From Candidatus Cloacimonadota bacterium (GTDB lineage Bacteria > Cloacimonadota > Cloacimonadia > Cloacimonadales > TCS61), in contig JASUTE010000023.1 in the NCBI GenBank assembly GCA_030445745.1, positions 1 through 27,987 of the forward strand: DNA of 27,987 nt, in the 5' to 3' direction. The translations under genes and the position numbers were made by a program. Below are positions 24,984 to 27,987 of this stretch, one piece after another. Under the pieces are notes generated by a model that searched no databases, was not told the origin of the DNA, and worked only from the letters and a program-made list of their open reading frames with translations. Within the stretch, counting starts at the first letter, position 1, and every line of letters begins with the position of its first letter.

Positions 24984-26099
24984 ATGGCAGAAATTGTTAA
25001 TTTCTTTTCCACAACTGGAATAGCACAGATGCAGTGGTCGTATTTCATCATGATAATTTTTGGCTTAATATTCATCTACCTAGGAATTGCCAAACAATTT
25101 GAACCGCTACTACTTATTCCCATTGGTTTTGGTGTAATTATAGGAAATATACCCGGCACGCTGGGGGTATACGATGAAAGCTCAGTCATGAATATAATTT
25201 ATTTCGGTGTAAAAAGCGGATTATATCCACCGCTGATTTTCTTGGGTATTGGCGCTATGACCGATTTTTCTACTTTAATTGCCAATCCCAAACTTATTTT
25301 ATTGGGAGCAGCGGCTCAATTTGGTATTTTCGCCACTTTTATTGGGTCTATTTTATTGGGATTTTCGGTAACAGAGGCGGGAGCAATTGGTATAATTGGT
25401 GGAGCAGACGGACCCACTTCAATTTTCCTGTCTTCTCAGCTTGCTCCGCATTTGGTTGGCCCCATCGCTATTGCTGCTTATTCCTATATGGCCTTAGTAC
25501 CAGTAATACAACCACCAATAATTAAATTGCTTACCACTCCCAAAGAACGTATAATCCGCATGAAAACACCTCGGTTGGTTTCTAAACGTGAAAAGATAAT
25601 CTTTCCTATTATTGGCGCAATCGTAACAATAATGATCGCTCCTGGTGCTTCTATGCTATTGGGTATGCTTTTCTTTGGTAATTTATTAAAGGAATGTGGC
25701 GTAACCGACAGGCTTATGAAAGCAGCACGAACCTCAATTGTAGATATTGTAACCATTCTTTTGGGATTTGCAGTTGGTGCCAGCACCCAAGCAGATGTAT
25801 TTCTGCGTTTCCAATCGGTAAAAATATTCGTGCTAGGAGCTCTTTCCTTCTGTATAGCCACCGCAGCGGGACTTATATTTGCCAAACTGATGAATCTGTT
25901 CCTGAAAGAGAAAATCAACCCCATGATCGGAGCTTCTGGAGTTTCAGCTGTCCCAGATAGCGCCCGGGTAGTGCATAATACAGCTCAAAAATACGATAAG
26001 AAAAACTACCTGCTTATGCATGCTATGGCACCTAATGTAGCGGGTGTTATTGGTTCGGCAGTAGCAGCTGGTGTGCTTTTGGGTATCTTGGGTAATTAA
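24984..26099 (+). CDS. mmdB: Sodium-translocating decarboxylase beta subunit
   Basis: A polytopic membrane protein of 371 residues (OadB/MmdB/GcdB family) that decarboxylates carboxybiotin and exports sodium ions. Diagnostic motifs are GVKSGLYPPLIFLGIGAMTDF, the sodium-site helix motif GIIGGADGPTSIFL (Asp142 within it), SYMALVPVIQPPI, GASGVSAVPDSARV and the terminal MHAMAPNVAGVIGSAVAAGV. About nine to eleven hydrophobic segments are visible. The frame can be extended to a GTG three codons earlier, but ATG 24984 has AGGTGA five bases upstream. The stop shares one base with the ATG of the transporter gene. Subunit order A-D-C-B matches sodium-dependent methylmalonyl-CoA decarboxylase operons such as that of Propionigenium. 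Confidence 0.95.
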   Translation: MAEIVNFFSTTGIAQMQWSYFIMIIFGLIFIYLGIAKQFEPLLLIPIGFGVIIGNIPGTLGVYDESSVMNIIYFGVKSGLYPPLIFLGIGAMTDFSTLIANPKLILLGAAAQFGIFATFIGSILLGFSVTEAGAIGIIGGADGPTSIFLSSQLAPHLVGPIAIAAYSYMALVPVIQPPIIKLLTTPKERIIRMKTPRLVSKREKIIFPIIGAIVTIMIAPGASMLLGMLFFGNLLKECGVTDRLMKAARTSIVDIVTILLGFAVGASTQADVFLRFQSVKIFVLGALSFCIATAAGLIFAKLMNLFLKEKINPMIGASGVSAVPDSARVVHNTAQKYDKKNYLLMHAMAPNVAGVIGSAVAAGVLLGILGN

Positions 26100-26998
26100 T
26101 GACACAATTTTATGAAAAATTAATACCGGTCATAGTCATCTTCTTTCTGGGTTTCTGCCTTAAAAAGCTGGGAATTTTCCGGAAAGAAGATGGCGACCGT
26201 TTTCTTAAACTATCTTTTTATGTAACTTTACCTGCCATTACTTTTCTAGCCATCAGCAATGTGCAATTAAAGTTGGAATTCATCTATCTGCCTTTCATAG
26301 CAATGGCCAATGTATTTATAGTTTACTTCATTGCACTGCTGGCTGCCAAGAGATTCCATTTCACCAAAGCAGCCCGCGGTACTTACCTAATTGCTGCCAT
26401 GATAATGAATACCGGTTTCACCTTGCCTTTTTTAATTGCTGCTTTCAACCAGCAAGGGCTTGCCCTTTACACCATCTTCGATTTTGGCAATGTACTGCTC
26501 ATCTTCACCTTCATCTACTACGTAGCTATTCGGCATGGTAAAAATAGCTCCGCTAAGATCGACCCGAAAAAATTCCTGCATTTGCCACCTTTGTGGGCAC
26601 TGGTTTTAGGATTTATTTTCAATATTGCTAACTTGCCCATTCCCTCTATTGCCAACAACTTTTTAGATATTTTAGGAAGCCCCACCATTCCACTCATTAT
26701 GATCTCGCTAGGCATCTATTTTTCGCCCAAACTTATCAACCTGGATAAGATAAGCTCGGTGCTATTTATTCGCATTGGAATTGGTTTTCTGCTAGGCTTA
26801 GCTTTTGTAAATATTCTAAATCTTCAGGGTATAATACGAACTGTGGTAATAGTGTGTTCGGCAGCGCCGGTAGGCTACAACACGCTGGTTTTTGCCAGTT
26901 TGGAAGAGCTGGATAAAGAGTTCGCCGCCAGTTTAGTCTCTTTTTCAATTCTATTGGGAATTCTCTATATCCCGGTACTTATCTTTTTCTTTAGTTAA
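26099..26998 (+). CDS. AEC (auxin efflux carrier)-family transporter
   Basis: A 299-residue membrane protein of the AEC family, with about ten hydrophobic helices in two five-helix halves. It opens KLIPVIVIFFLGFCLKK with GIFRKEDGD and FYVTLPAITFLAIS; the crossover of the second half contains SPTIPLIMISLGIYFSP and the last helices include CSAAPVGYNTLVFASL, all usual for the family. Bacterial relatives carry malate, malonate and other carboxylates. Its ATG overlaps the mmdB stop by one base, so it is produced together with the sodium pump. The plausible cargo is a carboxylate of this pathway (succinate, propionate or malate), perhaps driven by the sodium gradient; this is inference from position. 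Confidence 0.85.
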   Translation: MTQFYEKLIPVIVIFFLGFCLKKLGIFRKEDGDRFLKLSFYVTLPAITFLAISNVQLKLEFIYLPFIAMANVFIVYFIALLAAKRFHFTKAARGTYLIAAMIMNTGFTLPFLIAAFNQQGLALYTIFDFGNVLLIFTFIYYVAIRHGKNSSAKIDPKKFLHLPPLWALVLGFIFNIANLPIPSIANNFLDILGSPTIPLIMISLGIYFSPKLINLDKISSVLFIRIGIGFLLGLAFVNILNLQGIIRTVVIVCSAAPVGYNTLVFASLEELDKEFAASLVSFSILLGILYIPVLIFFFS

Positions 26999-27010: not shown

Positions 27011-27038
27011 AAACCGTTGAAACGGTTTCTTGTTTTTC
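27011..27038 (+). terminator. Palindrome acting as probable terminator of the mmd/AEC transcript
   Basis: AAACCGTTGAAACGGTTT (27011-27028) is a perfect inverted repeat and is followed by CTTGTTTTTC. It begins 12 bases after the transporter stop. Its U-rich tail suggests a terminator for the plus-strand operon, while an exact second copy at 27266-27283 shows that it is also a repeat element. Confidence 0.5.
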
Positions 27039-27052
27039 ATCTTTCACTAACC

Positions 27053-27112
27053 ACCACCGACTAACCCGGTGGAATAGTCCTACGGAATTCCACAGGTTAA
27101 AAAGTCAGTGGT
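27053..27112. repeat. Palindrome b: nested long hairpin with CCGGTGGAAT arm
   Basis: Outer arms ACCACCGACT / AGTCAGTGGT pair at nine of ten positions; inner arms CCGGTGGAAT (27066-27075) / ATTCCACAGG (27087-27096) pair at nine of ten. The apex contains TCC-TAC-GGA. A small bulge of A residues lies on the right side. Confidence 0.75.
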
Positions 27113-27176
27113 TAATAATATCTTGTGCCAGACACCAACTAACCCGGTAGATTATCGAACAGCTTGGTTCCCCAAA

Positions 27177-27233
27177 ACCACCAGTTTTTTACCCTGTGAA
27201 ATTTCTTAATATTTCACTGGGTCAACTGGTGGT
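27177..27233. repeat. Palindrome c: nested hairpin with CCTGTGAAAT arm
   Basis: Outer arms ACCACCAGTT / AACTGGTGGT are a perfect 10-bp match; inner arms CCTGTGAAAT (27193-27202) / ATTTCACTGG (27211-27220) pair at nine of ten around an 8-base loop. The inner arms are the A/T version of the ones in palindrome b. Confidence 0.78.
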
Positions 27234-27265
27234 GACACAAAAGCACCTACCGTCCACAGCTACCC

Positions 27266-27283
27266 AAACCGTTGAAACGGTTT
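27266..27283. repeat. Second exact copy of the AAACCGTTGAAACGGTTT palindrome
   Basis: Identical to 27011-27028, and both copies are preceded by CCC. Here the tail is TATATTTTCCC rather than CTTGTTTTTC and no gene ends nearby, so this copy does not look like a dedicated terminator. Confidence 0.85.
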
Positions 27284-27295
27284 TATATTTTCCCT

Positions 27296-27337
27296 TTCCT
27301 GCTTAGCCCACCCGCTAAAGCAGGTGGTTAACAGGAA
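27296..27337. repeat. Palindrome d
   Basis: TTCCTG / CAGGAA outer arms enclose TTAGCCCACCCGCT / AGCAGGTGGTTAA, an imperfect stem with an A/G mismatch, a bulge and one C/T change. The full element can fold into a single 17-19 bp hairpin with a very small apex. Confidence 0.65.
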
Positions 27338-27338
27338 T

Positions 27339-27357
27339 GTGGTTTTCCAAAAACCAC
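27339..27357. repeat. Palindrome e
   Basis: GTGGTTTT / AAAACCAC, a perfect 8-bp inverted repeat with a CCA loop. It shares the phrase leading to ACCACCAG with the sequence before palindrome c. Confidence 0.65.
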
Positions 27358-27388
27358 CAGATAAACCCACTTATACACTAAGCATCAA

Positions 27389-27427
27389 ATCCTGTGAAAT
27401 GGGAAGAATGAACCCATTTCACAGGAT
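27389..27427. repeat. Palindrome f: perfect 15-bp stem with CCTGTGAAAT arm
   Basis: ATCCTGTGAAATGGG (27389-27403) and CCCATTTCACAGGAT (27413-27427) are perfect reverse complements separated by nine bases. It contains the shared arm pair CCTGTGAAAT / ATTTCACAGG without mismatch. Confidence 0.85.
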
Positions 27428-27454
27428 AAATAGTCAAATAGCCAAATAGTCAAC

Positions 27455-27502
27455 CCAGTGGAATGATGCCTCGCATCAAAATCAAAGATTTTATTCCACC
27501 GG
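27455..27502. repeat. Palindrome g: three-way-junction element after the FISUMP gene
   Basis: Arms CCAGTGGAAT (27455-27464) / ATTCCACCGG (27493-27502) enclose two complete small hairpins with no unpaired base between them: GATGC-CTC-GCATC (27465-27477) and AAAATC-AAA-GATTTT (27478-27492). The right arm ends one base from the FISUMP stop codon, so in the minus-strand transcript it would fold just after that stop. Confidence 0.8.
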
Positions 27503-27503
27503 A

Positions 27504-27987
27504 TCAATTTGAATCCCTTACGCAACGTACTGAAAACCCGGCCTGCTCATCAAATTCGTAGCGGTAAACCTGTGTATAATTGTAAACGAGCATGCGTCTC
27601 CAGGCGTAGCCTGTACTGTTCTCTGTAGCCGACCAGAAGAGGCCAATGTCGCCAATATCGCCGAAACTACCTTCATTGTTACTACGCCACCCGCCAGGAA
27701 GGAAATTAAAGCCACTGCTGCCAAATTCTGGGTCATTTTCCAAACCTCCATCACTCCATAGGGCAGCATTGCCTGCTAATTGGCTGCCCTGGTTTGTTCC
27801 GCGCCAGCCGCTATCATCTGCTTCACTCTGGCTCATACCAAGGTACATCTCTAACTGTTTTATCTCGTCATCTGTAGGTACATGCCAACCTTCCGGGGCT
27901 AATCCTCTCTCATCACCTACCGCATACCAATTGTAAAGGTAGCCATAGGTATCTACATTGCTTTCATTGTTGGCATAAACACAATAA
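27504..27987 (-). CDS. FISUMP-domain protein (5' part missing at window edge)
   Basis: The C-terminal 160 residues of a protein with the Fibrobacter succinogenes major paralogous (FISUMP, Fib_succ_major) domain. The frame is open to the right edge, so the start, signal peptide and any earlier domains are not seen. Diagnostic phrases in order are YLYNWYAV, LAPEGWHVPTDDE, LEMYLGMSQSEADDSGWRGTN, GSQLAGNAALW, FGSSGFNFLPGGWR, GLFWSATE and the closing FSVRCVRDSN. The domain is common, often in many copies per genome, in Fibrobacter, Bacteroidetes and Cloacimonadota and is usually on secreted or surface proteins; its molecular function is unknown. It runs opposite to the metabolic operon, and a three-way-junction palindrome begins one base after its stop. 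Confidence 0.9.
   Translation of the reverse strand, partial: YCVYANNESNVDTYGYLYNWYAVGDERGLAPEGWHVPTDDEIKQLEMYLGMSQSEADDSGWRGTNQGSQLAGNAALWSDGGLENDPEFGSSGFNFLPGGWRSNNEGSFGDIGDIGLFWSATENSTGYAWRRMLVYNYTQVYRYEFDEQAGFSVRCVRDSN

Follow-up and report, generated by a model that had tools for sequence, protein, structure and literature searches.

What is the dense array of palindromes that fills the spacer between two convergent open reading frames (ORFs) near the end of a Candidatus Cloacimonadota contig, and what keeps the arms of these palindromes paired? The window, i.e., the whole stretch of 27,987 nucleotides that was analysed, corresponds to contig C30 in a genome of 2.04 Mb and 38 contigs. 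The ORF upstream of the array (26099-26998, plus strand) is presumably an AEC-type transporter, with 57-58% identity to the transporters in Candidatus Tenebribacter burtonii and in a second Candidatus Cloacimonadota genome. The downstream ORF (27504-27986, minus strand), which runs off the contig end, we take to be FISUMP-like. A preliminary description of the spacer had reported four inverted repeats with shared arms, CCNGTGRAAT/ATTYCACNGG, as stems under selection for pairing. All four are present, and their positions, arms and loop sizes were borne out when checked against the sequence. The strict pattern had no match in 300 dinucleotide-preserving shuffles of the window and the loose pattern a mean of 0.017 matches, compared to the four observed, and the 521-base palindrome region folds with a z of -8.3 relative to shuffles. 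Arm position 7 covaries as described: copies 1 and 4 pair G with C there, and copies 2 and 3 pair A with T.

Copies 1 and 2 are the inner portion of larger, polar hairpins. In copy 1 (27052..27114, plus strand), an outer stem (27054-27062/27103-27111) encloses AAC (27063-27065), CC (27066-27067), the mismatch G27068.A27094, the inner stem GTGGAAT/ATTCCAC (27069-27075/27087-27093), GG (27095-27096) and TTAAAA (27097-27102). Copy 2 (27175..27234) is also of the nested type and lies on the opposite, minus strand, with the outer stem ACCACCAGTT/AACTGGTGGT (27178-27186/27224-27232), the inner stem GTGAAAT/ATTTCAC (27211-27217/27196-27202) and an A.A mismatch as read on the minus strand. The other two copies stand alone. 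Copy 3 (27389..27427, plus strand) has perfect arms of 15 bp (ATCCTGTGAAATGGG/CCCATTTCACAGGAT), so that its actual loop is 9 nt, compared to the 15 nt that follow from 10-base arms. Two small hairpins, AAAATCTTTGATTTT and GATGCGAGGCATC as read on the minus strand, make up the 28-nt loop of copy 4 (27455..27502, minus strand), and this double-hairpin subfamily is also found in the genomes G009, G115 and G118. Three AAATAGYCAA direct repeats with 8-base spacing (27428-27453) separate copies 3 and 4.

The array contains further palindromes. AAACCGTTGAAACGGTTT, which occurs twice (27011..27028 and 27266..27283), is identical to a published REP-like repeat of Caldithrix abyssi (PMC5317091), and CCACCCGCTAAAGCAGGTGG and GTGGTTTTCCAAAAACCAC (the latter at 27339..27357) are present as well. 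The hairpin CCACCCGCT-AA-AGCAGGTGG (27308..27327) has a 2-nt tip and is related, as an "empty" form, to the outer stem of copy 1. The repeat unit that contains copy 2 (27108..27331) shares 84.5% identity with positions 30349-30574 of contig C27 of the same genome, where more such units lie in tandem.

Aligned in a common orientation, 118 distinct copies from 14 genomes yield the consensus of a polar element, RAC-CC-R-GTGRAAT-loop-ATTYCAC-R-GG-TTAAAA. In about 50 of these the element is enclosed by an outer stem, the 5' arm of which precedes RAC while the 3' arm follows TTAAAA. The spacers are for the most part constant, at 3 nt 5' and 6 nt 3', and 27 different 5' stem sequences were identified. 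On one strand, the element folds into a hairpin of two storeys, in which a purine.purine mismatch is conserved and the internal loop is 3x6. The mismatch alters the view of arm position 3 that had been proposed: the position is indeed unpaired in three of the four window copies (G.A, T.T and A.C, with T-A in copy 3), but it is not free, since 82 of 83 distinct two-storey copies carry the purine.purine mismatch there; the junction is likewise conserved. The spacing of the arms ranges from 2 to 30 nt, and complete hairpins can lie between them.

The selection on pairing proposed for the stem is strongly supported by the copies as a set. Among 83 distinct model hits, compensatory changes occur in 16 of the 18 pairs, with 204 doubly changed cells against 74.3 (sd 7.2) in shuffled and at most 67 in slid versions, numbers to be read knowing that the alignment was fitted to the structure, that nested copies were partly picked for a paired outer stem, and that copies within a genome are related, such that cell counts overstate independent events. 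A search freed from fixed letters identified inner-stem variants that keep pairing (GTGTAAT/ATTACAC, GTGAAGT/ACTTCAC and GTTAAGT/ACTTAAC). Novel inner-stem letters with pairing kept were also observed in G040 (L299, L305, L308 and other loci). Counts of G.T versus A.C did not single out a folded strand. Beside the same gene in G021 and G034 (L228:1537-1565 and L229:1264-1292), a module is seemingly in the same place with conserved arms and unrelated loops (CTTTCTTTA vs ACGAAGTAT), a comparison that is partly masked and repeat-rich and served as a hint only.

A scan of the same genome and of related genomes revealed that the palindrome family recurs across the phylum Cloacimonadota. The loose core GTGRAAT-N2-30-ATTYCAC is found at 17 places in the genome of the window, versus none for a reversed-pattern control. 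We did not accept all 17 as family members: some look like chance hits in genes, and GTGAAATGAGGGAAATTTCAC is another repeat. GTGAAATGAGGGAAATTTCAC is repeated in the same context at the ends of contigs C3, C5, C12, C15 and C38 of this genome (L034, L035, L038, L039 and L047), and is probably the edge of a longer unassembled repeat. A covariance model, which picked up decayed copies that the exact core had overlooked, gave six two-storey matches in this genome at E <= 0.01; the window accounts for two of them, and C27 and C16 contain one each, the latter decayed. Among the genomes of relatives, 35 of 59 contain the pattern. A stricter, oriented pattern was found in 20 of 124 genomes of the phylum, with no reversed-control matches; it was confined to families f1, f7 and f13 and had no match among about fifty f10 genomes. 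The number of model hits per genome reaches a maximum of 71 (G040). In 40 Calditrichota genomes we observed one chance-like match, the module being essentially absent there, and viral contigs had no pattern matches in two scans. The best matches in Rfam 15 were far under the gathering scores, and no known structured RNA family was identified. Thus, further copies exist and those that vary keep their pairing, the two points on which the preliminary description had staked its interpretation.

Outer hairpins exist both with a short tip and with the module. G006 carries a repeat of about 200 bp that is bounded by two hairpins, one filled and one empty in L135; in L137 the two states are swapped. 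The flanks agree, as CCCATGAAT and ATTCATGGG enclose AA in the empty form and AACCCAGTG...GGTTAAAA in the filled form. Within the genome of the window, TTACCACCGGCT-CA-AGCCGGTGGTTAATAATATC in C27 is empty, whereas copy 1 of the window has the module between CCACCGACT and AGTCAGTGGTTAATAATATC. Filled and empty CCATCGACT hairpins are adjacent, in tandem, in L179. At an orthologous locus, with a common tnpA and downstream gene, the right-hand hairpin is filled in L103 (G030) and empty in L111 (G034). Two other orthologous loci, L331 (G115) and L335 (G118), share 83% identity over 2.8 kb and differ in two respects. One is a stand-alone module of 35 nt, whose insertion site is not at a tip. The other is a palindrome of about 23 nt, TTCCTGACGAGCTCAGGAA, at the tip of a CCCCAATT/AATTGGGG hairpin whose counterpart in the second genome is empty (L331:2035-2065; G115:C92, G118:C255). 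As this palindrome differs from the module, tip insertion is not restricted to the module. At the level of sequence comparison, these data demonstrate modular gain and loss in addition to selection for pairing: the inner part behaves as a module that is gained or lost in outer hairpins, with gain and loss both possible for any single pair. The orthologous spacer in L214 and L179 also differs in module position; it is too rearranged to be considered a single event.

The proposal that RAYT or IS200-like genes might accompany the palindromes led to IS200-like TnpA genes and one RAYT-like gene beside modules. In L091, L103, L314 and L330, an IS200-type TnpA gene is located between corresponding hairpins, one filled and one empty, and in L331 a module lies downstream of an IS200-like TnpA gene; the TnpA proteins of L091, L103 and the others exceed the NF033573 cut-off. 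A module is present within 600 bp of 5 of 17 IS200-like TnpA genes, where 0.2 are expected, or 0.7 when the intergenic preference is allowed for. All five module-adjacent TnpA fall within one clade of 17 (out of 42 TnpA in total), compared to none of the 25 outside it (Fisher P 0.007). Within this clade the module label clusters no better than shuffled, and the TnpA in L048, from the genome of the window, is a member as well. Genomes with at least four modules have a mean of 8.7 Y1_Tnp genes versus 2.4 in genomes with none or one, and the numbers of Y1 genes and modules correlate over 58 genomes (rho 0.51, a statistic that ignores phylogeny).

Most Y1 genes are without a neighbouring module. 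An initial proximity test with the exact core, by which decayed copies were overlooked, gave one clear case in about 50 Y1 loci, and none of the three Y1 genes in the genome of the window has an adjacent module. The RAYT-like gene, in L172 (194 aa), scores under the NCBIfam cut-off; a module lies 70 bp downstream of it, and its upstream side has a decayed, inverted copy. The remaining approximately 50 Y1 loci are not flanked by two inverted copies in the manner of RAYTs. For G040, with its 71 model hits, no Y1 gene was detectable and no transposase candidate was recognised at the module loci. Many of the copies in this genome, the main counter-example, are close to contig ends, and a transposase could possibly reside on an unbinned element.

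Other Y1 loci showed arrangements of their own. At L172:1023-1803 (G023:C255), a 163-aa RAYT-like gene has textbook GTAG-tagged hairpin pairs on both sides (TGTAGTGACAG..CTGTCA and GGCAGA..TCTGCCACTACGA); G023 also carries a normal REP system here. In the genome of the window, the IS200-like TnpA at L048:1257-2050 (C35) is located between direct repeats of about 150 bp with several hairpins, and the end of its coding sequence is duplicated upstream of the gene. In L050 (C1:2303-5488), arrays of CAAGCATCCTGCTTG palindromes accompany a RAYT that exceeds the NCBIfam cut-off, and its neighbours on either side are presumably type III CRISPR-like parts (a CARF/Csm6-like ORF and a RAMP-like ORF).

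The expected intergenic enrichment is evident: long ORFs span 72% of the fetched DNA, and 113 of the 118 copies fall outside them. Overall, the copies are evenly oriented relative to their neighbouring genes, with 22 on the same strand, 24 on the opposite strand, 15 between divergent and 14 between convergent genes. Local biases do occur: most members of the GTGAAAT family in G006 precede a gene of the same orientation, and the copies in G020 point almost uniformly one way relative to the genes beside them. Covariation alone does not separate RNA from single-stranded DNA; the absence of an overall orientation bias favours a DNA element over an element at the transcript level.

We consider it reasonably probable that the palindromes of the window are a non-autonomous, REP-like array of the type of hairpins found on either side of IS200/IS605-type (Y1, HUH) transposase genes in Cloacimonadota, folding as single-stranded DNA, with a nested tip module that is gained and lost. 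The shared arms would be the visible part of this nested module, CC-R-GTGRAAT-loop-ATTYCAC-R-GG followed by TTAAAA, which may enter or leave the tips of various outer hairpins right after a short (usually RA) tip, and may sometimes stand alone. The R.R mismatch and the 3x6 internal loop could serve as recognition marks for a Y1 transposase on single-stranded hairpin DNA, the putative working form, and the enzyme would recognise the hairpins and then move them. We infer such recognition by Y1 TnpA because mismatch and internal loop fit a role known from the E. coli REP and from IS608/ISDra2: E. coli TnpA-REP reads the single-stranded REP hairpin via its head and mismatch bulge, repair of the bulge abolishes activity, and the TnpA proteins of IS608 and ISDra2 touch unpaired or mismatched bases (PMC8266576). 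Mobilisation would thus be by a Y1 TnpA, with a member of the WSTK-type TnpA clade, or else a RAYT, as the candidate mover; the association of TnpA with the module is one by proximity. The array in the window would be a transposase-less mosaic derivative. More tentatively, and with doubt prevailing, the module might be a self-contained, gene-less miniature mobile element of 30-60 nt that targets the tips of other hairpins while its own loop accepts more hairpins, i.e., selfish palindromes nested in one another, which IS200-type transposases would move in single-stranded form through much of the phylum.

The same hairpins could be moved by another enzyme, such as a RAYT or an IS3/IS110-type transposase, enzymes known to work on REPs or to insert into these, with the IS200-like TnpA as a mere neighbour. 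The RAYT-like gene of L172 with a module on one side and a decayed one on the other, the lack of a Y1 gene in G040, and the insertion of several IS families into REPs (PMC1525189) would agree with this, but filled and empty hairpin pairs flank four IS200-like TnpA genes that all belong to one clade, and we find it a fairly unlikely explanation. A different possibility is that the hairpins act as RNA, as transcribed UTR elements (mRNA stabilisers, terminators, attenuators or small structured RNAs), with selection for pairing acting on the transcript. This is equally compatible with the covariation and with the conserved unpaired bases, and the orientation bias within single families in G006 and G020 is in line with it. 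The overall evenness of orientation and the lack of an Rfam family argue against it, and the presence/absence at orthologous sites and the nesting in other palindromes point to mobile DNA, leaving a function as RNA unlikely.

Template-switch correction of quasi-palindromes occurs in bacteria and yields two-sided changes. The arms could therefore be made or repaired passively by template switching during replication, giving covariation without selection or a dedicated enzyme. Such a process would, however, erase the R.R mismatch and the asymmetric RAC/TTAAAA junction, and the same arm letters return in different families of the phylum, within outer stems that are unrelated, which makes passive palindromes very improbable. 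Inverted arms in an intergenic position would also be expected of a double-stranded operator, an inverted-repeat site for a dimeric regulator or nucleoid protein. This is scarcely credible here, given the variable arm spacing with entire hairpins between the arms, the variation that preserves pairing and not sequence, and the occupation of convergent intergenic spaces, as in the window. The reading as mobile, single-stranded hairpin DNA is the one we compare to known systems below.

The literature searched contains no description of the module, nor of such an element in Cloacimonadota. In its working it would resemble a REP or an IS200-end hairpin. Like the REPs with their RAYT/TnpA-REP (E. 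coli Y/Z palindromic units, BIMEs and REPINs; PMC2817692, PMC8266576, PMC3733652), these are short intergenic palindromes (30-60 nt) in mosaic arrays, with covarying stems and a conserved stem irregularity, and such hairpins flank Y1 transposase genes. The RAYT-mobilised REP, named in the preliminary description as the closest type, is thus close, but we do not class the module as such because the GT(A/G)G head, a defining feature, is lacking at the 5' foot. On the strand where a head would be expected, variable TAAC/TAGC/AAGC-type letters precede the outer stems, and GTAG was seen by eye in only one (L203) of the nested copies listed. In further contrast to REPs, the copy number is lower (at most 71 model hits per genome and only 6 in the genome of the window), presence and absence are nested within other palindromes, one conserved tip module is common to many outer stems across the phylum, and the partner genes are mostly IS200-like TnpA, with hairpins in direct-repeat units. 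GTAG-3 REPs have alternative simple or self-complementary tips (PMC3733652).

As at the ends of IS200/IS605 elements and in MITE-like derivatives of these, the same hairpins flank, on one strand, TnpA genes that exceed the NF033573 cut-off (L091, L103, L314 and L330, with the module downstream in L331), and transposase-less arrays of similar hairpins are found elsewhere; here, in contrast, there are several hairpins per flank in 150-200-bp repeats, and a conserved, insertable tip module. The 18-nt palindrome of Caldithrix abyssi, aAACCGTTgaAACGGTTt (PMC5317091), has identical counterparts twice in the window array, and related AACCGTT..AACGGTT hairpins surround the TnpA in L103 and L111, but it is a separate palindrome of the mosaic and Calditrichota genomes are without the module. 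Insertion sequences that target REPs (IS1397, IS621 and ISKpn1; PMC1525189) likewise aim at REP hairpins, although these are complete elements with a transposase gene, whereas the module is a hairpin without a gene.

REPs are widespread, and the origin and multiplication of their stems, tips and mosaics are an open question. The occurrence of one conserved tip module in many unrelated outer stems, with filled and empty forms flanking a single transposase gene and also at orthologous positions, amounts to a natural experiment. It makes directly testable what irregularities in a hairpin contribute to its recognition by Y1 transposases, and whether nesting gives rise to new types of REP. Nesting at hairpin tips looks like a little-known route for tiny mobile pieces of DNA. 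The GC clusters and double-hairpin elements of yeast mitochondria (PMC4478555) belong to organelle DNA, with other host machinery and no sequence relation, but they too are tiny palindromes found either alone or merged with another at the same homologous site.
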